From Paramacrobiotus metropolitanus (lineage: Eukaryota > Tardigrada > Eutardigrada > Parachela > Macrobiotidae), in contig NW_026570372.1 in NCBI RefSeq assembly GCF_019649055.1, positions 1 through 64,000 on the forward strand: a stretch of DNA of 64,000 nt, in the 5' to 3' direction. Positions 1 through 47,027 of this stretch are shown here, one piece after another. The notes under the pieces are model-generated. The model was not told the origin of the DNA. It worked only from the letters and a program-made list of their open reading frames with translations, and did not search any database. The position numbers were made by a program, and so were the translations under genes. Numbering within the stretch: the stretch's first letter is position 1; each line of letters starts with the position of its first letter.

Positions 1-3000
1 ACTTCCGCATAAACCACATGTACAAAGGTCAAGGAAGAACAATTATATTCCCAACAGGACTTGTACACGGTATACGAATCGGTGGTGGTATTCTGTAAAG
101 CACTCAAAGACGATAAAAGGAATTATCGGAGATAATGAATGTTAATTATGGCGAGCGGCATGATTTTGTCTCGCCTTTGACATTAATGTGCTGTCGCGGT
201 TGAGATTTATTGCTGGCCATCTGGGTGGTCCGATGGTATTCCTTGAGATTGCTCTGGTTTCATGCTGCCTTTAGCAGCTTTACATCTCAGTGTTCATTTG
301 CAAAGATTTTCACCAAGTGGTTGATTTGTAAAAATTTCTGGAAGAAATTCCATGTTGCTGTGCTTTAGTGTATCTGCTACTGCCATATGCTCCTGCATTA
401 TGTTATGGCGTAATCTCGTCCGCGGCATATCTTGTCTACAATTATTACGTCGTGTCTCTCATGATTTGTTTATAGCCGCTTGTGTTTCGTACATCAATTT
501 TTGGAGGTCCCTATTTACGTTTTCTTTATCGAGGATTAGTAATAATTTCCATTTTGCATAATATATTTGCTTTTTATTTGTGACTATCACCATATTGGCG
601 GTTGCCAGCCTTTTCAGCCCGGCATCTTGCCGGGTACAAAACGCCTAACTTCATTTGCTTGCATTCTGGCTACCATTCTAGAACGTGGACGGCCATATCT
701 CTGCACGTCAACATTTGTTAGGTCATTCTTTATATAATAATGAGCTTGTGTGTGCTCCTGATCTATTACATAGATTTTATATTTGTACATAGATATTAGT
801 ATATATATTAATTATTTTTATATTGTATACATGTTGTAGGCTTACATATTTGTGATATGTAATACAACATAAATTTTATTATTGGTTATTATGATTATAA
901 ATATTATTATTATATACATCATCATTAATATTGGTTATATATATTGTTATTATATATAATATTATCAATATCATTGTCATATTATTATTATATTGCTTGT
1001 ATCATTATATCACAATCTTCAAGGATTGATCTTAATATGTATAGATCTGTCATACTATTATTACATACCGTGTATGGTTTTACATTTCTAATAAAAGGTA
1101 TGTCAAACAAATTATTGATAGATTTTATGATATATTATGTTTTATTATTAATATATTTTATAGTATCGTATATTTTGTTATTTATTGACTTCAGTATCAT
1201 ATTTATTATTGACAATTTATTGTGTATATTGTGCACCTATTGTGCGTGTAAATATTGTTATGTGTATTATAATATATAATACAGTATTATTGGTATATGT
1301 ATTATAATATATATTATTGTATTGTGTTATTTTATCGTATTATTATATTGTATTATTAAACTGTACTACATTATGATGTATTATTACATTTTATTACTGC
1401 ATTGTATTCTATTGTATTGTATGCATACTTTATCTTATACATATTTGATATTTGTGTACAAAATTTTACCTTATTTTTATATATATTATTTATGTATTAT
1501 TATTATTATTATTTTATCATTGTTTGTTGTTGGTAATATTAAAGTTATTATTATTTTACCCTTCTTATTTTTATTTAAAACACTATTGTTATTATTATGT
1601 ACCGTTGCTCTTGCTGTGGTTATGATCGTTATTGTTATAATTGCTGTATTATCTTCCCGTTTTACGATTGTTTGTTGTTATAATTTTTATTCGTCCTGTT
1701 ATTGTTATCCCCATTGTTATCCCAATTATTTTTATCTTCGTTACCCTGTTATTTATTTCTCTATTTGTCATCCCTGATATTTGTTATCCGTGTGATAATT
1801 ATTGCAATTCTTATTCTTTCTCCCTGTTATTTCTATTCCTGTTGTTTGTTGCATCCCGGTTCTTATTGTTTGTATATCCTTATTTCTGTTATCCTTACAT
1901 CCCTGCTCTTGTTGTTACTTTAGAGCGTTCTATTTAAGTTCTCTTCATTGAAGTTTCAGTAAACGGTGTCTCTATAATTCGAAATCGGAGTAAATTTAAG
2001 ACTACCACCACATGGGCGATTGCCCTGTTCTTTCAGTCTGGAATATTGCTGGATTCATTTGTTCACGCTCTTTACTCTTGCAGTCTTATATGTGTTATTC
2101 ATTGTCATTTATTGTTACTGCTGTTATTTATTGTATCCTCATTTCCACTGTTGCTATAATCGTATTTTATTATCGCTGTTTTCGTTTTCCTGTTATTTAT
2201 TACATCTCTGTTCATATTCAGTATTATTCTTTTTCTTTTACGCCTCTCTTGAATTAATTTCACTGGTGCCATTAACGGTGTGTCCGTAATATATCTGTCT
2301 TGTATTTATCGTTGGATACTTATTACCAATATTTTCTGGTGGCCTTTGGTTAGTATTTCCAGATTTTACCGTGAAATGCGTTAACCAGCATCACATTTCC
2401 GTGTCTACGCAGAAAACGTTTCGGCGGCATATTCGGCGGCACCGCAGTTCTTATCTGTTTAATTTTATTTCATTGTGTCTCATTGTGTTTCAATGATTTT
2501 GTCGTTTGGTTCCGCTTGATGCCTCATAATCGCTTAATGCTTATATCCGTTGGTCACATGTGTTTAGTGGAAACCCGCATCATGATTCCTTTGTTGTCGT
2601 TTCGGTTCCCTTTGATGGCTTCTTATTCGGGTGTACAATATGCATTGCTTTCTGCTTGCATCTCAGTTCCCTTCATTTCTCAGTGATGACCATACTGTTC
2701 AGTTACGTAACTTGCCGCCTGATGACAGTCATAAGGTTCTCCTAATCGCTTTATACAGTGATTCGTAATTCTAAAATTGACCAGTTCTCTCGTCATTAAA
2801 CAGTTTTGTTCTTTAATCCTGCTGATCGATCTGGACATTTGTTGGATATCAAGTGCGTTCTCGTCTTGTTCGCGAGATATTATTTGCGTCCCATAATTCT
2901 GCTTATACAGTCCATCACCATGTATTGAGCCTATTGGCTATTCACGTCGAACGTCGAACTATTACAGTATATATTATATTATAGTATATATTATATTTCC

Positions 3001-4147
3001 ACTTTTCACTTGCGACTGCCAGCGTGTCAGCGGCTGCTCTGTTCTTTCAGTCCGGCAACTTGCCGGGTGCGTAAAAATTCTGATTTCAGTTGTTTGCGTT
3101 CTGACTACTTTGCATCTTTGCTCAGCTAATTTTGTGTTGTATTGCTTCCGTGGATTTTCACATCAAACATGACTTTTGATCGTTTTACGTTATCATCCCA
3201 GAGACTTAACCGTATCCGATTCGTTTTGGTGTTCTCAAATTTCTTTTTGATCCTACTGTATCTAACGCCTCGGATTAGCTGATTCGCAATGGGACGAGAT
3301 GGAAAGCAGTGGATATGCCGATCACCAAACCGGATCTCGCACGCCAACGTTATTCCCATTTAGTTCTTCGAATTTTACCTTCAGACATGTAATCCAGCAT
3401 CACATTTCTGTGTCCATGCCGAAAATATATTCCGGGGCACTGAGCCGCTTTCTGCAGTTCCTACATTTTCCACGTTGTGTTCCGTGGTTCATTAATGAAG
3501 CTGAAGTGTTTAATTTATCGTCCGTTAATACCGGTATGGGAACAAATATTCCCATGTTGCACTTACAGAAATCAGCGATTGGTTCCATTTGAATTCTTTG
3601 TTGGCCTATATCCCTGGATATCATCTGTGTTTTACTGAAACCCGCATTGCGGTTTCTTCATTGTCACACACCGTATCTGAATCCATTGTGTCTGAATTTG
3701 CGTTATCGCTCATTGATAAGTCATGACGATAATTTTCGTCATTTTACGGTTTTGCGATCATCAAGTTTCCCGTATAATCCTACTTTCCAAAACTGACCAA
3801 TTCTCTTATGGTTGTGCAGTATATTTTAATCCTGCTGATTCGTCACTTGTACAGTTTCTGTACTTATTTATTCTATATTCCTACTATTGTGTGTCAATTG
3901 ACATTTGGCGCTGATGCACATTTCTCTGCTTTATAATCGGTCACCGTGATTTTGGAATTATTTTGAGCGCAGTTTGCGTCGTCTGTTACCAGCATTGCCT
4001 TCCTTTCTACAGTTTCCGTATCAGTGCTGCAGTGCCACGTTGGTCATTGATTGGATATTCTTATGTTCCTGTTTGGGGGTTTGTTTGGGGCGTTTGTGCT
4101 TGTTGTTAGATCATTGTGTTTTTCGTTGTTGATTCATTGTATTCATT
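1..4147. repeat. AT-rich low-complexity DNA and degenerate ~1-kb tandem repeat
   Basis: No convincing gene. Bases about 780-1800 are very AT-rich, with runs of TAT and ATT that yield only spurious Tyr/Ile/Leu-rich frames. Bases about 2010-2940 and 3010-3970 are diverged direct copies. Shared landmarks are a TTTCAGTC(T/C)GG block at 2031 and 3045, a CCAGCATCACATTTC block near 2385 and 3394, an AAACCCGCAT block near 2570 and 3648, and a TTTAATCCTGCTGAT block near 2812 and 3834. A further partial copy of the TTTCAG...CCGGCA...TTGCCGGGT block lies near 610. The position immediately before the retroelement coding region suggests untranslated or LTR-derived DNA of that element family, but no terminal LTR pair was found. 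Confidence 0.6.
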
Positions 4148-6712
4148 GTGTATATCATTGTTTTCCCATTAAAATACCCGGCAAAACCCCGTCGTCGATC
4201 GGTTACAGCACACGCGAGCAACAGAATTAACTGGGAGATATTCGACAAATACTGGAGGAAATTTGAAGCGGAGATTCCAATATTCGACACAAAGGAGATG
4301 CGCGAATTACAAGTAACCCGGAAAAGAAGGTTACCGGGATTGATGGAGAAGAAAAAGGTGACCTTTGCACCAGATCCAGATGGAGTCGAATACCCAGAAC
4401 GAGGCGGTGATACATGGTTCATGTATGAAACGATTCCGAGTGATGACTGAGTCACCGAAGAGCTGATGGCAAATTGTGTCTTCGTTGGTCCCAAACGACC
4501 AAAAGGTTATGAAGCGGCCCAAAAAGAAACAGAGAAGGAAGAGCCAGCTAAAGAGATAGCTGAAGGAGGATCGAATGAGACAGAAGAATCGCACACATCA
4601 GCCTTCAACGTCGCACAGATGTTAACGGATAGAGGGGAGATGTGGAAGAAGTTTAAAATGGAGATGGAAAGGATATCGAATGAACAACAAAACCCAGTAA
4701 CTGAGGCAAAAAACGGGGAAAGGTCACTCGACAACGGTGAGGAATGTCCGCCGGTCGAGTCGACCGAAAAGCCATCAATGAGTCTTGAAGAAATTGACGA
4801 ACTGGAAAAGTTAAACCAGGAGGAACAAAGGTCAAACTCCGATCAATCAGAAAGGTCACCAACAAGAATACGGGTAGCAAGGAGTCATCCCAGAATCGTC
4901 GTACGAAATGGACGAAAGGCAAAGGAAGCGGACAAACCTCTGCTCAAAAAACCGAAAGCTAAAAAACTTAGCGATTCGCGAGAGAATGAAAGTGACCTTT
5001 CATCAGATGATGAAGGAGTTGAAGAGCGCCCACTTGAAAAGGCTGATAAAGGTCAAGCCGCTGCACAAGAATACGAGAGCAGCGATTCGGACTCGGAATG
5101 GACGAGTTCAAGCGATAACTCAACGACTTCGGAAGATTCAGGCGTAAGTGACCTTTCAGAACAAGAGGACTTACTGGACTTGGATGAAGATGACGAAGTC
5201 AACGAAGAGAAAGAAAAGGAGATAAAAGTCAGAAGACTCAGAATAGAGAAAGCAAGGCTTTCGAAAGATGTGATTAAAGTTTATAGTGACCAGCAAATCA
5301 AACTGAAACCGTCAAACTGCACACGGGTAAAGGTCAAGATGGGAAAATATGCACCGGCCCAAAACAAGTTGATGTTTACACCGGTCCCACAAGTTGAAAC
5401 TTATGTGCAACCGTTGGCAGGAGTGACGGACCACAGAGGAAAATACTTCGAAATCGTCATTGCGAACCACAGTAGCAAATACCAAATCGTGAAGAAAAAT
5501 CAACTTCTTGGCTACGTGGAACCGTATGAACATATGGAAAATGTAAAGGTCAACGCTGGGACAGTAAAGAACGTACTCGAAGACCCAGAGGTGTATGATA
5601 CGACGAAAGCCGAATTGACAAAGATAATTGGAAATCTGAAATTAGGACCTGACCTAACGGAGGAACAGAAGAATGACGTGTATAACGCGTTCTGGGAATT
5701 CTGAAAGGTCCTACCGACGTCCAAGAAACCATATGGGGATGTGAAAGGGGTTACTCACGTAATCGATACGGGAGATGCGAAACCAGTTAAATGTAACCCG
5801 GCCAGAACGAGTTGGACAGGCCGCGAATTCATTACGAAGCATATAGAAGAGATGTTGGCACAAGATGTGATTGAACCGTCGGATGCCGAGTGGAGTTTTC
5901 CAGTCGTGTTAGCAGTAAAGAAAAACGGCGACGGAACGATGGGAACCAGATTTTGTGTCAACTACATCATGTTGAATAAGTTAACGAGAAAGAACAATTA
6001 CCCGTTACCGAATCCGGACGAATTACTTGATGCGTGTGCAGGTAATAAATACTACGGAAAAATGGACCTGCAAAGTGGATTCTGGCAGATCCCAATGGAT
6101 CCAGCGTCAATCAACAAGACGACCTTTGTAACGCAAGATGGAATGTACCGGTTTAAAAGAATGCCATTTGGAGTCTGCAATGGACCAGCAACATTCCAAT
6201 TGTGCATGGATAAAGTACTTTCGAAAGCGAAAAGAAACGGTTGCGTTTTCGGGTACATTGATGACGTGATTTTCGCCGGAAAAACTTGGGCGATCTTCAT
6301 GCAGAATTTGAGAAATGTATTGATGAGCCTAGTCGAAGCAGGATTCACGATTAAACCGACGAAATGTGAATTCGGAATGAGAGAAATGGGATTCCTGGGT
6401 CACATACTCAGCGAAGACGGAATCAGAATGGATCCTGAAAAGGTCACCGCAGTATCCGAATTCAAACGACCTCAAACTGAACGGCAATTAAGGTCATTCC
6501 TTGGACTGGCGAACTATTACCGCAAGTTCATAATGGGATATCCACAAAAAACTTGCCATTTGTACGAACTGTTGAGACAAGATAAGCAAGTGAAAAAAGA
6601 CTGGACGAAAGTGCACGAAGACGAGTTCAACAGTTTGAAACAACTGTTGTGTGAAGGTCCAGTATTGGCAAAATTTGACCCCGCGAAACCGACCGTTATT
6701 GAATGCGAGTAA
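4148..6712 (+). pseudogene. Gag-like acidic region and reverse transcriptase (broken pol, 5' part)
   Basis: One frame interrupted by two TGA codons (4448-4450, 5702-5704). Bases 4466 to about 5240 encode a hydrophilic stretch rich in Glu, Lys and Ser, with no zinc knuckle or DTGA-type protease motif seen. Bases 5280-5700 resemble the segment that normally lies between protease and reverse transcriptase in Ty3/gypsy pol (motif QLLGYVEP). The reverse transcriptase follows from about 5750, with HVIDTGDAKP, RFCVNYIMLN, KMDLQSGFWQI and MPFGVCNGPATF. The catalytic box is YIDD near 6254-6265. The frame ends at a TAA at 6710 where the RNase H DAS motif should begin. This copy cannot make a full polyprotein without read-through and frameshifting. 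Confidence 0.85.
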
Positions 6713-7133
6713 AGAAGGAATCGGAGCAGTGTTGTCACAAGATGGCCATCCTATCGCATACGCGAGTCGCGTCTTACACTGAGCAGAGAGAAATTACGGT
6801 GTAACGGAATGGGAATGTCTGGCAGTAGTGTTTGCTGTCAGAAAATTCAAGCCATTTATCGATTATGCGGAATTCACCGTAAGAACGGATCACCAGGCGC
6901 TGACCAACTTATTGAGGTCGGAAACGAATAAAGTTGGAATGAACCCGCGTTTGACGAGATGGGCAATGGCGCTGCAAGGTCATCAGTTCAAAATCGAGTA
7001 TAAGCCAGGAAAGTATTGTGACAATGCGGACGCCTTATCAAGAGCGCCGATCGAAGGGCCAACGTGTCATGAAGAAGAATTCGACGAAATTCCAAATTTT
7101 GAAGATTACAAGAAAGAATTCGACACGAAATAA
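6713..7133 (+). pseudogene. RNase H domain of the retroelement (broken)
   Basis: The frame picks up directly after the shift near 6710 with SKEGIGAVLSQDG and AYASRV, then an in-frame TGA at 6780-6782, then NYGVTEWECLAVVFAVRKF and the characteristic TDHQAL with RWAMALQGHQF and DALSRAP. These are the usual Ty3/gypsy RNase H and tether landmarks. The first catalytic Asp, normally in a DAS motif, is lost at the deletion. A TAA at 7131-7133 ends this open piece. The downstream piece 7155-7373 is in the same frame and is probably the linker to integrase. Confidence 0.8.
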
Positions 7134-9212
7134 CCAGCAATCGAAATTGGACAGTTGTTCCTGCAGATGGCGGAACAGAGGGAGAAACGTTTAAAGGTCA
7201 CCTCGGCTACGGCGAATGAGTCGGCTGAGCCAGAAGTAAACGTGAACCGTGTAAAAAGTTGGTTGCCGAACGTTAGTGACTTAAGGGTCACCGGACTTGA
7301 AGCGGAACCCGAGGCTCAAAACGGAAAGGTCACGGGACTTCATGAAGCAACGGAAAATAGAGATGACCTTTGAGAAACGGACAAAGTGACACAGGCGTTG
7401 AACGAGTGCCCGATAAAGCTGTTGCGCTTCCCGAAACAGGTGAGATAGAGATATAAGCCATTACCACGCTGTAAGGTCATCAAAGATTGGAATGAACTCA
7501 GTACGGCGACAGTCCGGATTGTCAACTTGCAAGGCGATGAGGAAGAGGAAGACGACTCGAACTTGCAGTTGCGCAATAAACAGTTGAAAGATCCCCATCT
7601 GGCAATGATAATAGATGAATTGGAACATCTACCAGATGCTGAAACGAGATCGAAATTTGAAGTGCACTACCAGTTATGGAACGGCATACTATACCGAGTA
7701 AAGGATAAAAATGGTAAACTCGAAAGGTCATATGTGGTACCGTTGTCAATGCGAAGAGCGATAATCCACGCATTGCACGACGAGAAAGCGGCAGGACATT
7801 TGGGATTCGAAAAGACACTGTCAGCAATAAGATTGCGTTATTATTGGGATCGAATGAGTACCGATGTAAAGAATTACATACTGGCATGTCAAGGATGTCA
7901 ATTCCGCAAAACGCCAAGAAAATGCCCACCTGGAATACTGCAGGAGATTGAAGTGGGACATCCATTCTTCCGAGTCTACGCGGATCTGAAAGGACCGTTG
8001 TTACCAACGAAGAAACGAGGATACAAGTATATCGCAGTGTTTATTGATCAGCTAACGAAATACGTGATAGCAGTACCTATGAAGACGGCAACGGCCAAAG
8101 AGTTTGCAAAAGTGTTCGTAAAGCACGTGATATTGGTACACGGAGCACCGCATATCTTACACACGGATCGCGGACGGCACTTTACAGCTGAAGTACTGAC
8201 AAAGGTCACCAATGTGTTTAAGATCAAACACACATTCGGAACGGCGTATCATCCAGAAGGTCACGGCCAAGTTGAAAGACAGATGCAGACGATTGCAGAT
8301 GGCTTGGCGCAATACTTGAAAGCGGGAAACGAAAGAAAGTTCAACAAGTACCTCCCATACGTCATTTCGGCGATGAACAGAGTTGTACACGCAACGACCG
8401 GATACTCGGCATATTATATGCTACACGGCAGAGAAATGACAATGCCGGAAGATGTTGTAACAAAAACGAATATACCGGATGATTATGGGACTCCGGACGA
8501 ATGGGTTGAGACTATGAAAAAGAATTTGACCTTTGCTGAGGAAGTGGCGAGATGCAACATCAAAGACGCTTACGAAAAGAATGCGGAAATTTACAACAAG
8601 AGGAAATCGGAACCGAATTTTAAAGTAGGCGACTTGGTACTCATACGTCTCCCGACGGATACGAAACAAGGGAAGAAGGAAAACCAGTCCGACTTTAAAG
8701 CAAAATATGATAAAGTGTGGAAAATCCTTAGCTTTCCACGAGTAAACGAAGCAGAGGTTATCGAACAGAACCCAAAGAAGGAAGCGGACTTAAAGGTCGT
8801 CTCAATCGACCGCCTGAAATCATGGCATCCACCATTGCCTGATGAAAAGCTGGAAGGCGATCCTCAAAAAGAGATGGAATCAGAGCGAAGCCCTCAAAAT
8901 GATTTGAATTCCCAACGCAAATCATTTTTCGAACCACCTCTGCTATCCGAAAAAGAAAAGTCGGAAGAAGATGAACTCAGTGAAGCCGAGCGTGCTCCGA
9001 AAAATGGTACCAGTCAAATTTTCGAACCACGCTCTCTGTTACCTGACACAAGCGGAGATAAGCCAAAAAAGAAGAGAGGGAGACCGAGGAAAGAGGATAA
9101 AGATTTCGAAACAGCAGTTACAATTAAGTTAAACGCAGAAGCTGGAAATTTGGCAGAAAGGTCACTGGAAAAGGAGACCGAATCAGGTTCTAAAGTAGCA
9201 GGACTCTTTTGA
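7134..9212 (+). pseudogene. Integrase region with AT-hook C-terminal tail
   Basis: The linker 7134-7526 carries stops at 7371 and near 7447. The long open part 7527-9212 encodes 561 residues. A zinc-binding HHCC domain is seen (HALHDEKAAGHLG, later CQGCQF). The D,D,E core follows as YADLKGP, HTDRGRHF and HGQVERQMQT. The C-terminal part has the GDLVLIRLP motif common in gypsy integrases. No chromodomain is visible. The tail instead has a canonical AT-hook-like KKKRGRPRK near 9068-9095, and FEP(P/R) motifs recur in this open part (about 8928, 9020) and beyond its stop (about 9209, 9296). An AT-hook would favour minor-groove AT-DNA binding, a plausible targeting device, but that is inference. 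Upstream stops make the copy non-functional as a polyprotein. Confidence 0.85.
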
Positions 9213-9246
9213 ACCACGCACTGCTACCAGAGACACCGACGACCTT

Positions 9247-9543
9247 TTGAAACAGCAGACAGGCGCCGAGATATCAGAGCGCGATCCGAACTTTTTCGAA
9301 CCACGCACTGCTACCGGCAATGAGAATGACCTCATAAGAAAAAGAAAAGAGGAGATAGAAGCGGTCAAATCGAAAGCTGTACAATTGGGCCGCGACATAG
9401 CAAAAGCAATCGATGACCGAAAGGTCAAACAGAAGAAAAAGAAACTGACTCCTACAGAATTGTTGACCCAGAAAGGTGAAGTTGAAGATGCGGCCGACAA
9501 AGAACTCCTTGATCGGATAACTAAAGGACGCAAAGAAAATTAA
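9247..9543 (+). pseudogene. Short charged open frame downstream of integrase
   Basis: A 98-codon open stretch rich in Lys and Glu, in a frame different from the integrase. It begins inside the FEPRTATG repeat family shared with the integrase tail and ends with TAA at 9541-9543. It is probably the displaced C-terminal continuation of the integrase tail after a frameshift and not an independent gene. No domain recognised. Confidence 0.5.
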
Positions 9544-9599
9544 CCCACATAAATACGAATAAGGGGTTTTTACTTCACTAAAAATAGGAGTTGGGAAGG

Positions 9600-10330
9600 T
9601 GTAAAGGTCATACGCCACAAACCTGCTAATCGTTATCGTGTTCGATGTTAGTCGAAAGGTCACCAAACTCTGACGAAAAGTCATCAAAAACGTTAAAAGG
9701 TCATCGAAACAGACGTCAGAAAGGTCATCATGGATGAAAAGTCAACAGAAAGGTCCTCCAGTCGAAAGGTCATCAGACTCGGACTGAATCATACGAGAGA
9801 AGCGAAAGGTCATCGAAAAGTCGAGATACTCCGACCGAAATTCAAATGAAACAACAAAAAGGTCACGAAAGTCCGGAATCTTCAGAAATTATCGTCCAAT
9901 CGAAAGGTCATCGAACTCTGACTGAAGTACAAAATGATGTGCAAACGTCGATTGAAGCAAAACCGGAAGAAGGTAAATCAAAAGGTTAAGAGACTCCGGC
10001 AGAAATCCAAATGGAACAGCCAAAAGGTCACGAAAGATCTAGATCAGCAAAAATAAAAGGTCATCAGATGAGATTGTGAAGTCGGATCACCGAAAACCAT
10101 AAGGTCAAGTGACTAACGAACCAAAGGTCAAGCGCAAATAAACTTAAAGGTCAAATGTCAAGTGAACCAAGTGTCAACTGAAACGTCAAGTGACAGACCA
10201 ACTGAAAGGTCACGGGACTTGGTCAGAAAAAGACGAACAGTCTAAAGATCAAGAGACGTCTGGAACCGTGAAAGAGGAAGCGCAACCTAAAGGTCAAGAG
10301 AGTTCCGCGTCTACGGAACAACTGAAAGAC
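9600..10330 (+). repeat. Irregular array of AAAGGTCA-centred repeats, partly coding K-G-H/Q repeats
   Basis: Sixteen exact AAAGGTCA octamers occur here (9603, 9655, 9696, 9720, 9765, 9805, 9858, 9903, 10023, 10056, 10123, 10146, 10205, 10289 among them), with near-copies such as AAAGGTCC and AAAAGTCA in between. Spacing is irregular, about 23-120 bases. The surrounding words GAAAGGTCATC and CTCTGACTGAA or CTCTGACG recur. From about 9840 to 10330 the same words read as a degenerate peptide repeat (QQKGHES, QPKGHERS, QLKGHGT, QPKGQES). The array could therefore come from an old repetitive coding region, from DNA-level amplification, or both. Confidence 0.7.
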
Positions 10331-10790
10331 CATGAAATGTCGGAAGAAGGGGAGAAGGAAAAGGGCATGCTCCCCATGGAAAAAGCGCCAGCAGATGCGG
10401 AAACCGATTCGGCGCGTCAAGTGTTTCAGAAATCCTTGATAGAGGCTACCTGAACGGAGAAACCGAAAAGTCACGAGACCTTGCCGCAAGAAGAGAAGAA
10501 TAATCAGCCGAAATCGGCCCAGTCATCATCCGGATCGTTGGCGAAGTTGAAGATTGTTGAAACAGAGAGCCAGGAAATGGACCCAACGGACTCGGCATTA
10601 TCCCCCCAGAAACCGGATGCTAGCGGTATACCAGCGAAAAACATACCGGTGTACATACTACCGGGGCACAACAATAAAAATTCGTGGGGGCGGCCATAAC
10701 TGATGCGGCCATGGATATTATCGTCGGAACAAACGCAGTGACGTTGAATGACCTTTTAAACTGCATGGCTGTCTGACTTTGAAATGTTCA
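10190..10790 (+). pseudogene. Residual open frames in element tail, possible protease remnant
   Basis: Two short open frames (10190-10453, 10481-10699) encode hydrophilic Glu/Lys/Gln-rich sequence like the gag-like region upstream. Just after the second, in another frame near 10707-10770, MDIIVGTNAVTLNDLLN is vaguely like the hydrophobic core motif that follows the active site in retroelement aspartic proteases. If so, this stretch would be the front part of a second, related element and not the tail of the first. The support is weak; there is no DTG active site. Confidence 0.3.
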
Positions 10791-11065
10791 AACTGAATAT
10801 CGGAAAGGATGGGAAGTAAATCAGAAACTCTGTTGAATGTTTGATTAACGACGGAGCACTTGAACTGGCGTAAACGACAAAACGTAAAAGGTCACCGCGT
10901 TAGAATGAAGCAATTGAGCTTAATGATTTAACGAAAAAGGTCACGAAAGGTCATCAGAAGCGAATATCATGGTTAAGTATAAAGGTCACGTAACATGTTA
11001 ACTTAAACTGCATTCGTGTAATTGTTGTTTTCAGCATTTATAGCACAGAATCAGAAGAAAGAAAT

Positions 11066-11530
11066 CATGTGGAAAGTTTTTGGGGTTGAAATTGATTCGG
11101 TCTTTAAAGCCGGCCCCAATGGAGTTGTTGCGGCAGTTAGCCGGCTCTCCCTCTAAGCGATTCAGTGTTATAAATTCACAAGAGAAACTACGGTAATCAA
11201 GCCGGATCTCTTGAATACGAAAGAGGGTTACAAGCGGCGAAAAAGAGAAAGACAACAGGTGGAATTTTAATGGGGTGAACTTAATGCGGCAGCTAGCCGG
11301 CCTCATTAGAGTTGCTACGGTAAACAATGCCGGCCATCTCTAAGCGATTCAGTGTCAGAACTTAACGAGAGAAACTACGGAAATTCAGCCGGATCTCTCG
11401 AGACGAAGACTGGCCACAAGCGGCGAACAAGAGTGAAAGATGTTAAGTGGAAATTCATGGGGTAAATTTGATGCGGTAGTTGGCCGGCCCCATCAGAGAT
11501 GTTACGGTAAACCTTGCCGGCACTCTGGCC
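11066..11530 (+). repeat. 187-base tandem repeat, about 2.5 copies
   Basis: The word GCCGGCC(C/T)C occurs at 11109, 11296 and 11483, and CTCTAAGCGATTCAGTGT at 11151 and 11338: a constant period of 187 bases. Copies are diverged by point changes and small indels. Each contains the sub-words GAGAAACTACGG, GCCGGATCTCT and ACAAGCGGCGAA. No coding potential. It lies between the forward-oriented and reverse-oriented AAAGGTCA blocks of the element tail. Confidence 0.85.
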
Positions 11531-11579
11531 GCTCGAGGCATATTGAAGTTGGATGTGCGACGGAAAGGTCAACCTGAAA

Positions 11580-11960
11580 ATTTTACCAGGGAGGCAAGCA
11601 AAGAAATGCTTGAAGGCCGCAGATAATTGGCTAAGTTCCTCCATGACCTTTAATCGAAGTTTGAAGAGAAGTTGGATGACCTTTGGGATTATTACCGCCC
11701 AAGAGAGTCACCGTATTAGAATTTAAGTCGCATGACCTTTTGGGACCATTAACCCAAACGAGTCGCACATCCCGGATCACCTCAACAAAGGATGACCTTT
11801 ACCAGGGAGGAAGCGAACTACGCTTGTCTTTATTGACGTCCCTCCATGACCTTTATTGGATCTCATTTTTAAGTCGTACGATTGATACGCACCTTATTCC
11901 AAAGATGAAGCAGTATTTCTAAAGTCGTACATTGATACGCACCTGATTCTCAAGTGGATT
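11580..11960 (+). repeat. Short direct repeats around reverse-oriented TGACCTTT octamers
   Basis: ACCAGGGAGG(C/A)AAGC occurs at about 11582 and 11801, each followed some 50 bases later by TCC(A)TGACCTTTA. AAGTCGTACgATTGATACGCACCT occurs at about 11871 and again at about 11922 with one base missing. Five TGACCTTT octamers (11644, 11677, 11733, 11793, 11847) all point the same way, opposite to the main array upstream. Confidence 0.7.
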
Positions 11961-12060
11961 GTGATGAAGTCGCTTTACATATGCGCGGGATTGCTCAACA
12001 GAGCGGAATGAGCCAAAGTGCTGAAAACGGTGGACAGGACCTGTGACCTTTACGAGTCAG

Positions 12061-13683
12061 AAATGGAGGATCCTAGTCTACATTTGATTAATACTTTTGT
12101 TGATCTTTTAACTGTTGATCTGTTTTGTATTAGAATTGATATGGAATAGTATTTTGATACAGATCTCTTTAATTCACATTGTGTATTTGGAATTGATGTG
12201 ATAAACGGAATAAGAGAATTAGATGTTTTCGAGCATGCACAGACACCGGCGACCGTCTTTTCGTGGATTCGGGAGTGTGTCCAGCCTCAACGGAGCTCGG
12301 CATCCCCCAGAGGCATGTGAGACGAGGCTTCACTAGCGTTCACGTCCGTGGCGCTAGGCGCTACGCCTTTGGATTACGGTCTGTGTTGTGTCTCGCTCTG
12401 ATTGGCTTAAGTTGTGTCAGTGGGCGCGGCATAGCACGTGCTGCACACTTTGAATTTGGCTCCACGATTGACGATCGAGCTGTGCCGATCAGTATTGATT
12501 TTCTGTTGTCGGAACTTTCAATATTATTAAAGTTAGCAATTAGCGGTGCGACGTCTTGCGTTTCCGCATAGCTCGCAATACATATCGCATTGCTCGCTCC
12601 ACGGGATCTATTCCGTTTAGGTCGCCGTATCTGGATCACAGTTGGATCTAGCATTAGATCTCCATGTTGCCGGGTTGCCAATTTGTGCTGCCATTTTGAT
12701 TGTCATTATTAATAATGAAATACAACGACTAATTGCCGTAAGTATGGTAAACGAGTGGCCAGATCCACCACAATGTACAATACGAACAGCTCATAATTCG
12801 TCAAGTGCCGTGTACGTGACAAGCGTGTCATTGTTTCTTTACAATTAACTTTCGGAACAAGGTGTTCAGACTTCCGCGAAAGTCTTCTTGTTAGCAGTTC
12901 GCACAGAACAGGCAGGCAGAAGTTGTTAAAAAATGGCTTTATAGCGGCTACGGAAACAGCCATGTACACTTAGAAAACGTGTGTAGCTGAAAACTAATTA
13001 ACGCGTATAAGAGAAACGATTAAGTTTTGATCATATTTATTTGTGGGTATTAGAAATATGCCGGGAAACTTTCATAAGTTACAGAATGAATGTGATTACT
13101 AATTTTTTAATGTGAATGTGATTACTGAAAGTAATTTTATCATCTTATGCCAGTCATATTGTGTTTGGGTGTACGTTATCGGAACAACCTTCAATTCTTA
13201 TACATGTATGTAGTTTCTTTCCATTTATTACGAACTCGCTCAATCAAAACATCTGCAAAAGATTTCCCAGCAAAAGCTGCCATGCAAGCCTGCCAAATTT
13301 GTTTTCTACAAAATACAAATCACACCAAAAAGTCATTCCAAACCAAACAAATCCTCCACGCACAACCAGCAACCGCGTGTTCAGCGCAGGGATAAAAAAG
13401 TAAAAAATGGCAATGTACACATCAAAACTGGTGAATAAAGGCCGAAAAAAATGTTTAAATTATTGAAGCCAAATGTAAATCCGTGACAAGAACTGCCAGA
13501 AGCACACGCAAATCCTGTCGCATAACGTTCTAAACGTCAAAGTGCAAACAAGCAAAAAAACATGGTCCCAAAATCAAAACGAGGCACAGGAACAAATCAA
13601 AAAAGAAGGTCCAAGATGAATCCGGCGAAATATAGCGCAAAAGCCGCATAATAGTGACTATGACGAAGCCAGTTGACGTAAAT
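12061..13683. other. Intergenic, no gene recognised
   Basis: Bases 12240-12700 are more GC- and CpG-rich than their surroundings and contain a few short open frames on both strands without recognisable domains. They could be a promoter or an untranslated exon. The remainder is AT-rich, and A-rich from 13200 to 13680. Confidence 0.5.
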
Positions 13684-45710: not shown

Positions 45711-46866
45711 TCAACCGCTATGAATTTTACGGTTGGTCAAGCCCAATACGCTTTTTATGGCACGCTGCATGCTAGGCAAATTAAAATGGTAAATCAACGG
45801 ATGAAATATGCAGTTAAGGTAACGCAGGGATAAAATTACGACATAAAGCCTTGCATCCCAGTAGTAATCCAGGGTTATGGCTAGAAAAAAGACGATTTCC
45901 GGAACGTATCCGATGAACATACAGACAACGATGCAGAGAAATAGTCTAAACCATCGTTTTTCATTCAGTCGTTCCGCATCTTTTGTAGAGTTTCCACTGT
46001 TTGCACGCGAAAGACAAACATGCTGAGGACTTGCCGGAAGGACCGCGACGGTTTTCATTTTGTGAGCTAACCCTAAAACCGACGTTTCGTAAGTCCTTTC
46101 AATAGACCTTCAAACGCATTTTCTAACAAATGTTTCTCGAAATAAAAGTGAAAGGTAAAGATCAGTCAGCTAAGCTCCAGTACTTTAACTGACCTTTCAG
46201 AGATTTATATCGCGATCGCCTGTAAAGCTTGATAAAGATAGCAACGTAACTGCAGAGCACAAATACGGGAGGCGCGTCAAATACAACAAATTCGATGATT
46301 AGAGAGTACGTGTACTGTCCACTGTAGCTGACAGTACACGGGAGTGAGTGAGTATTATGCCACACCGCGTCCATGACGATATGAGGAGCATCAAAGATCA
46401 TTAGATAAACCCACGATACCAAGCACAATTTCAACGACAAGGTGCAGGAGCGGTCATGCTTGTAACTGAACGGAAAAAACACGGACCAAAGACGATCTAC
46501 GCTGATCAGCATTATGCAGTGAGCTGTCCCTGCCGAAAGTACTTTGTCCAGGAAAAGATAATATGGACAGTATTCGGGACTGGATGCCGGTGACAGTGTA
46601 TACCAAATGAATCCGGTCATACTGAATACCGCCACACCGAGGTCACACAGTGATAAATTTAGGATGTAGTAGGAGAATGGATTGCGGATCGTTGAATCCT
46701 TAACGAAAGCCAGCACGATTAAAGAATTATATAAAAACGTAATAAGCGCTATTATGCTGACGGCTGTGGCCAAAATGTAAGCTTCCGTCGATAACGAGTA
46801 ATTCTCGGCCTGAGTAATGTTGAAAAAATCAGGGGTGTTGTTCTTGAACGTTGTATTGCTATCCAT
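45711..46866 (-). CDS. Rhodopsin-class (class A) G-protein-coupled receptor, orphan
   Basis: Exons 46194-46866 and 45711-46072 join in phase to 344 residues. The start is taken at 46866 (MDSNTTF); an in-frame ATG at 46947 would add 27 non-conserved residues. Four N-glycosylation sequons lie before the first helix. Landmarks: Asp75 in helix 2 (NLSLCDLGV), the disulfide pair Cys100 and Cys177, and a helix 3 end DRLWSVFFP where most receptors have DRY. Helix 6 is MFIGYVP without the usual CW, and helix 7 is HPLIYHF in place of NPxxY. The plan resembles biogenic-amine and muscarinic-type receptors, but the ligand-binding Asp of helix 3 is not evident, so the ligand is unknown. The donor of exon 1 overlaps a TGACCTTT octamer. 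Confidence 0.85.
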
Positions 46867-47027
46867 CACGCAAATTCTTATCCAATTTCCCAAATCAATA
46901 CGTGAACCAATTCTAGTACAAACTAGGAAATTACAAGTGGTAAACAAAATTTACAGCTAAGCTTTCACACAGTGCATACTTTGAACATTGTACAATATGC
47001 TCGTTCTCTGGAGTGAGAAGAGCATCG

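Follow-up and report, generated by a model that had tools for sequence, protein, structure and literature searches.

A predicted nuclear-receptor site, kept as a DNA word, saturates a giant Ty3/gypsy retroelement of the tardigrade Paramacrobiotus metropolitanus

The window analyzed here is a stretch of 64,000 nucleotides from Paramacrobiotus metropolitanus (contig NW_026570372.1, positions 1 to 64,000). At its beginning lies one copy of a giant Ty3/gypsy retroelement, about 24 kb long, in which a single octamer, AAAGGTCA, or TGACCTTT when it is antisense, occurs far more often than expected. The contig start falls inside the element, and the copy is degraded by stops and frame changes plus a 4.1-kb insertion. 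Its features, including the open reading frame (ORF) remnants, are as follows.

1..116, + strand: 5' fragment of the element copy (part of ORF2) with an octamer at position 24; 84.7% match to L011:6799-6916.
117..4228, no strand: 4.1-kb insertion of unrelated DNA interrupting the element copy, 0 octamers; no match to the element pieces compared.
4229..5701, + strand: acidic, low-complexity ORF2 stretch upstream of the reverse transcriptase (translations, tblastn); octamers at 4359 (−), 4719, 4827, 4851, 4993 (−), 5048, 5149 (−), 5329, and 5545.
5741..6709, + strand: reverse transcriptase (RT; RVT_1, Pfam PF00078, E 5e-26) and start of RNase H, with an octamer at 6439.
6783..7130, + strand: remainder of RNase H in a shifted frame (translation, tblastn from C103).
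7449..9209, + strand: integrase with H2C2 zinc finger, rve core, and C-terminal tail (Pfam Integrase_H2C2, E 2e-20; rve, 4e-12; scanned at 7527-9212).
9603..10296, + strand: densest cluster of sense octamers, 14 copies, in a remnant of the 3' ORF region.
11151..11521, + strand: 187-bp direct duplication in the 3' noncoding part (TRF).
11644..12051, − strand: antisense octamer cluster of the 3' trailer (11644, 11677, 11733, 11793, 11847, and 12044), with a similar layout in C103.
12316..12659, + strand: 3' long terminal repeat (LTR), 84% match to the 359-bp LTR of C109, which contains no octamer.

The fragment at 1-116 belongs to the same element because its match in L011, which is part of the C103 relative, adjoins the match of the sequence from 4229 onward (L011 positions 6916/6915). 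The octamer at position 24 is thus one of the element, and both 117-4228 and 25-4358 hold 0 octamers. Residues 1293-1450 of ORF3 match 10181-10612 by tblastn, and positions 12658-12659 are the stop point for most of the 40 relatives scored.

Between 4359 and 12051, the exact octamer was recounted 44 times (32 sense, 12 antisense), whereas a second-order Markov model of this DNA predicts 0.7. This agrees with the count of 44 in the first-pass annotation, the readings of which as ERS, QRS, KGQ, VKV, SDLS, and VTF were also all present in the translations. The whole window contains 38 AAAGGTCA and 21 TGACCTTT. The word is exact, since each of the 24 one-mismatch neighbors occurs no more than 4 times in the element region. 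The sequences flanking the octamers of the window element have nothing in common except for the following base, which was G in 0 of 44 cases here, 0 of 91 in C103, and 1 of 97 in L002-L008.

To place this copy, the genome (169.8 Mb in 533 contigs) was searched, which yielded at least 124 RT matches with 80-100% identity, these being the ones scored out of 1567 candidates. The Pfam order in C103 and C7, the latter from lineage B, is gag-asp_proteas, RVT_1, RT_RNaseH, Integrase_H2C2, and rve, corresponding to protease (PR), RT, RNase H (RH), and integrase (IN). The C103 relative has a size of about 24.4 kb, with a frame of 3124 residues that includes PR-RT-RH-IN and a downstream frame of 1633 residues. 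That of C109 has about 24.2 kb and is a recent insertion because its LTRs are identical at 358 of 359 positions; this copy (L104-L106) nevertheless displays several frame changes in pol, which may be assembly indels or indicate mobilization in trans. The 5' and 3' LTRs of C103 match over 127 bp with no mismatch but an 8-bp gap, and the rest of the 5' copy was unmatched; the LTR length is taken as the 359 bp of C109. A profile scan alone gave no env-type Pfam match in the downstream ORFs scanned of C103 and C7.

Clade A is represented by eight copies, the window and its best matches L002-L008, and 20 copies of B and C were picked from the 124 to span lower identities. Lineage B has an RT identity of 89-92% and many open frames, while group C (L031-L036) was defined by an RT identity of 80-88%, although the tree places L031 apart, next to A plus C. 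Over 969 bp of the RT, the window differs from its seven clade A relatives at 6-16 first, 0-1 second, and 69-94 third positions. Since these differences are almost only third-position differences, this is a replicating lineage under strong protein selection. Rooting of A, B, and C with the integrase of a neighboring gypsy element as the outgroup was rejected due to too few informative sites (2 changes shared by A and B, 0 by A and C, 1 by B and C), so that B may have lost the octamers or may never have had most of them.

The octamers had been expected by the first-pass annotation to recur in intact relatives of the element, and the relatives C103 and C109, both read end to end, carry 91 octamers each (67 sense and 24 antisense, and 58 sense and 33 antisense, respectively), about one octamer per 270 bp along the element, but the related lineage B is almost free of them. 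Homologous stretches of 2.77 kb contain 10-14 octamers in clade A (n = 8), 7-12 in group C (n = 6), and 0-3 in clade B (n = 14), and 19 kb of sequence surrounding the C7 copy of B contains 0. A search for an alternative motif in lineage B by k-mer enrichment and conservation scans gave weak words, none of which is claimed. The leader of C103, between the 5' LTR and ORF1, carries ten antisense octamers at element positions 1060-1461, and 71 of the 91 octamers of this copy are inside open frames as bounded here (67 aligned to C109, 4 unaligned). The DNA preceding the C103 element (191500-198097), with integrase-like frames of another gypsy element, contains 0 octamers.

Conservation of the word was compared with that of control 8-mers at homologous sites. 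The same 8-mer was found for 612 of 672 octamers in A-A comparisons (control 0.40), for 200 of 295 within C (control 0.32), and for 342 of 576 from A to C (control 0.082). From A to B, retention was 128 of 1344 (0.095), the control level being 0.106. In the opposite direction, B to A, 128 of 144 octamers were retained, and within B 116 of 234 compared with 0.42 for the controls, little above other words; the octamers of B are mostly located at two sites common to A and C (columns 602 and 746 of the alignment, in 7 of 14 and 9 of 14 B copies).

The third codon positions were evaluated where the amino acid was the same, with the expectation taken from the same codons outside the octamers. Identical were 1220 of 1247 positions in A-A (0.733 expected), 438 of 454 from A to C (0.503 expected), and 407 of 412 from C to A (0.479 expected), A and C being lineages that are about 70% identical. 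The excess was smaller within C (124/128 versus 0.847), within B (286/330 versus 0.762), and from C to B (192/373 versus 0.383); from A to B it almost vanished (542/1077 versus 0.465). At octamer codons, the amino acid identity was 0.93 from A to C (0.76 elsewhere) and 0.56 from A to B (0.84 elsewhere). Residues may be dictated by the word, or the octamers may reside where the protein is free; in both cases, it is the word that is kept and not the protein. A shuffled-codon null had been proposed as a check in the first-pass annotation. Synonymous-codon shuffling of four ORF stretches of C103 gave means of 3.7, 0.2, 0.7, and 0.5 octamers compared with 37, 6, 10, and 5 observed. In three ORF stretches of the window, 8, 1, and 4 octamers compared with means of 0.5, 0.1, and 0.2, with shuffles also reaching 1 in the stretch that has 1 octamer, and two stretches of C7 from lineage B had 0 octamers versus 0.6 and 0.1.

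Strand was considered in the comparison of C103 with C109, in which four coding octamers of C103 were unaligned. Antisense octamers were kept in 8 of 9 coding and 13 of 15 noncoding cases and sense octamers in 45 of 58 and 3 of 5, respectively, while the control words reached 0.24 in coding and 0.46 in noncoding sequence. The octamers are under selection as DNA, whatever the frame or strand, as the first-pass annotation had claimed; third-position identity and the preserved antisense copies both bear this out. It follows that the octamer is hardly an RNA signal of the genomic transcript, used in packaging, export, or processing. A sense majority such as that in C103 (67 of 91) and C109 (58 of 91) would agree with such a signal, but the antisense octamers are equally conserved, and the bias in the A-rich L011 and L012 (39:4 and 24:2) is near the prediction from base composition, 11 and 9 to 1. 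This explanation is very improbable.

The distances between neighboring sites provide a further argument. When C103, C109, and the window were pooled, with C97 left out, 1 of 218 neighbor distances was in the range of 8-17 bp; the mean after jittering was 12.1, and 0 of 2000 trials was as low. In the single sets, which are not independent tests because the copies are related, 0 such distances compared with 4.4 in C103 (P 0.007), 4.4 in C109 (P 0.007), 4.1 in L002-L008 (P 0.009), and 2.6 in group C (P 0.065). The deficit of short spacings fits occupancy by separate protein molecules. Helical or nucleosomal phasing was rejected: no 10- to 11-bp period appeared, the period-3 signal fits the coding frame, and because distances were cut at 200, the 147-bp value cannot be interpreted. 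The spacing data also affect the possibility that a mutational or copying bias, by slippage or gene conversion, amplified the word without any function. Some copies indeed reside in local tandem repeats, namely in the C103 leader and, with an in-frame spacing of 18 or 24 bp, in the host locus L072. The conservation of the word versus synonymous drift contradicts such a bias, however, as do the unrelated flanks, the scarcity of short spacings, and the retention from A to B at the control rate, making it next to incredible as the origin of the array.

The word is not confined to the element. Genome-wide, with elements included, AAAGGTCA occurs 42,584 times versus 15,540 times for the reversed word and 22,938 times for three one-mismatch words together. 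In the window at 12052-64000, 14 octamers were found versus 1.5 expected, making it the most overrepresented 8-mer there, and none of the 14 is within a stretch that matches the element pieces compared. On C1, 0 of 16 loci from the first 100 octamers listed match these pieces. One of these loci, L062 (C1:277308-278115), and the cluster locus L069 (C1:331700-332300) hold paralogous copies of a gene that resembles those for secreted proteins, each with five octamers in and around the gene start; the family is of low copy number, with five genomic matches distributed over four places. Because the word is favored in host DNA outside the element and is clustered at a low-copy host gene family, it is likely that a host factor reading it exists independently of the element. 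The implication of the first-pass annotation that the word would not be equally dense elsewhere was confirmed insofar as the octamer density at 4359-12051, 5.7 per kb, is about 23 times the genome mean of 0.25 per kb; an enrichment of the word in other host DNA has to be added.

Some of these host loci have features of their own. L072:1181-1999 (C1:202300-204300) is an RS-rich ORF with 12 octamers, mostly spaced by 18 or 24 bp in frame, an apparent in-frame expansion of the word. L067 and L068 contain single octamers inside ORFs that presumably encode a Polinton-type DNA polymerase and packaging ATPase. In the window at 12052-64000, the palindrome TACTCGTA is also overrepresented (12 versus 1.6), and an octamer at 46190 is inside a 7tm_1 G protein-coupled receptor exon at 46162-46947 on the − strand (E 1e-21). 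The assembly contains no exact 4-unit array of TTAGGC or TTAGGG and no 2-unit array of GATGGGTTTT.

A candidate for the host factor follows from the word itself. AAAGGTCA is the published NR4A site (NBRE), which is bound by monomers or homodimers according to the portion of PMC6912296 used here. The genome contains 63 zf-C4 exon matches. At the C45 locus (L103), successive open stretches encode CEGCKGFFK with the P-box CEGCKG, the second finger, and the A-box RTDSLKGRRGRLP, and the best PDB matches of the second finger are NGFI-B 1cit (E 4e-22) and other NR4A members. Judged by these sequences, the host encodes an NR4A receptor with a canonical and intact P-box and A-box. The octamers are probably NR4A binding sites, a prediction in which we infer the receptor from the site. 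Concerning the half-site, the first-pass annotation was right in naming the NR4A element, but the neighboring FTZ-F1/ERR-type extended half-site TCAAGGTCA does not saturate the element, with 0 occurrences in 4359-12051 and 1 in the whole window. By our own recognition, further receptors of the host are taken to be EcR-, E75-, HR3-, FTZ-F1-, ERR- (two), and RXR-like. This set points to a moulting animal. FTZ-F1-like and ERR-like receptors are thus present, but the extended sites of those types are not identical to the word.

A reader of the octamer could also be encoded by the element. All three groups, A, B, and C, have conserved the end of its 3' ORF (for instance, L012:6430-7131 and L039-L052), which was modeled by AlphaFold as two winged-helix domains with a mean pLDDT of 78. 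With VIA-align, the first domain aligned with many winged helices, including those of SAMD1 and KAT6A, and the second with the linker histone H1.4 (Z 9.1, 71 residues). Pfam Linker_histone was above the cut-off of 22.4 bits in L049 (25.2) and L050 (23.8), both from group C, with no match in the other 3 of the 5 proteins scanned, the A copy included. Foldseek found no match to the winged-helix model at E 0.001 or better, and phmmer versus PDB gave nothing useful. In the window, the stretch before the winged-helix domains alone was found (10181-10612). The modeled domains suggest that the element manages chromatin.

An element-encoded DNA-binding protein of this kind might read the octamer and protect the element from silencing, as VANC does on VANDAL elements. 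The tandem winged-helix domains would be the obvious candidate, eight octamers of the C103 leader fall into tandem repeats, one of 29 bp and another of 43 bp, and for VANC21 a short motif is described, the density of which sets specificity (PMC5735166, in the part available here). On the other hand, lineage B encodes the same domains while being nearly octamer-free, and the domains of C103 are only 33-38% identical to those of five C copies, although A and C share exact octamers. Because of these two facts, the winged-helix region is not favored as the octamer reader. The preference for the word in unrelated host DNA also speaks against such a reader, which is altogether unlikely.

A host protein other than a nuclear receptor, of the architectural or insulator type, would instead bind the word and insulate the element from the chromatin next to it, as Su(Hw) does on the gypsy leader. 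The ten-site cluster between the 5' LTR and ORF1 of C103 is placed as in the gypsy leader, and the sites are on both strands and seldom very close to each other. The word, however, is exactly the NR4A site in a host that has NR4A, and the sites run on through the ORFs over 24 kb, so that an insulator protein is a rather poor candidate.

The explanation preferred here is that the octamers are double-stranded DNA sites for a monomeric nuclear receptor of the host, predicted to be most likely NR4A, and that they form a platform that keeps the element active; the confidence in it is about evenly balanced. One receptor monomer would bind to each octamer. The array spans leader, ORFs, and trailer but not the LTR, and the bound array would keep the chromatin of the 24-kb template open and transcribed in cells with an active receptor. 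A broader statement is that the element has turned its own coding sequence into an unbroken row of sites for a nuclear receptor of the host, independent of strand and seldom with sites so near each other that monomers would collide. The word would prevail over the choice of codons and perhaps even of residues, while a related lineage with almost identical pol proteins exists nearly without it. This appears possible, with a confidence slightly short of even.

Several observations count against a receptor platform. No octamer was found in the C109 LTR or the 3' LTR of C103, which is unusual for a plain promoter device. Lineage B manages with 0-3 octamers per 2.77 kb, so the octamers are not essential to this type of element. 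The host has further receptors of the AGGTCA type, and another factor with the same word may be the reader. The spacing deficit is weaker in the window (1 versus 3.1, P 0.15) and in the C97 stretch (3 versus 7.7, P 0.04), and short spacings do exist, one in the window (10 bp) and three on C97 (8, 12, and 15 bp). A G follows the octamer in 4 of 59 cases in group C and in 2 of 14 in the host DNA of the window, and a 3' flank other than G is, to our knowledge, not a described rule for NR4A.

If the platform exists, this would be a body-wide hijacking of a host transcription factor by a DNA message laid over a protein. Whether a parasite can sustain the activity of a long template by covering it with a host receptor becomes testable, with the nearly site-free lineage B as a ready natural control that also shows the device to be dispensable. 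The trade-off between DNA-level and protein-level selection within one sequence becomes addressable, and the word for a transcription factor site can be recovered from a genome sequence alone via its conservation versus synonymous drift. Sites for host factors in the LTRs or leaders of retroelements are already known. The present element has about ninety copies of one word that are kept through 24 kb, in ORFs and on both strands, and its codons bear the mark of selection on the DNA.

Mouse mammary tumor virus is a retroelement with hormone response elements in its LTR promoter. It resembles the present element in the use of nuclear-receptor sites but has them in the LTR, where none is found here. 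Within literature titles and abstracts, subscription papers being outside this scope, nothing comparable was found on linker-histone-encoding, giant, receptor-site, or site-saturated retroelements, and AAAGGTCA combined with retrotransposon gave matches that were off-topic by title and abstract. The Burro elements of planarians, as far as described in the sections of PMC6431247 drawn upon, are giant Ty3/gypsy elements with an internal region that can reach 25 kb. They share the giant size and the very long ORFs but have other accessory domains, and these sections do not mention saturation by a word; "histone" and "winged" have zero occurrences in this review of giant gypsy elements.

The gypsy insulator of Drosophila is closer in layout, being a cluster of host-protein sites that follows the 5' LTR of a Ty3/gypsy element and precedes its first ORF. 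In the part of PMC2374998 consulted, it comprises 12 Su(Hw) sites in 340 bp of the 5' untranslated region, compared with 91 sites of another word over 24 kb, ORFs included, in the tardigrade element. The VANDAL/VANC system of Arabidopsis is similar in that a dense short motif marks the element, the arrays are partly tandem, and lineages differ in their motif content. According to the portion of PMC5735166 at hand, VANC motifs are mainly noncoding and are read by a protein of the element. Here, by contrast, the motif fills the coding sequence too, with 71 of 91 copies in C103, and it is a word favored by the host.

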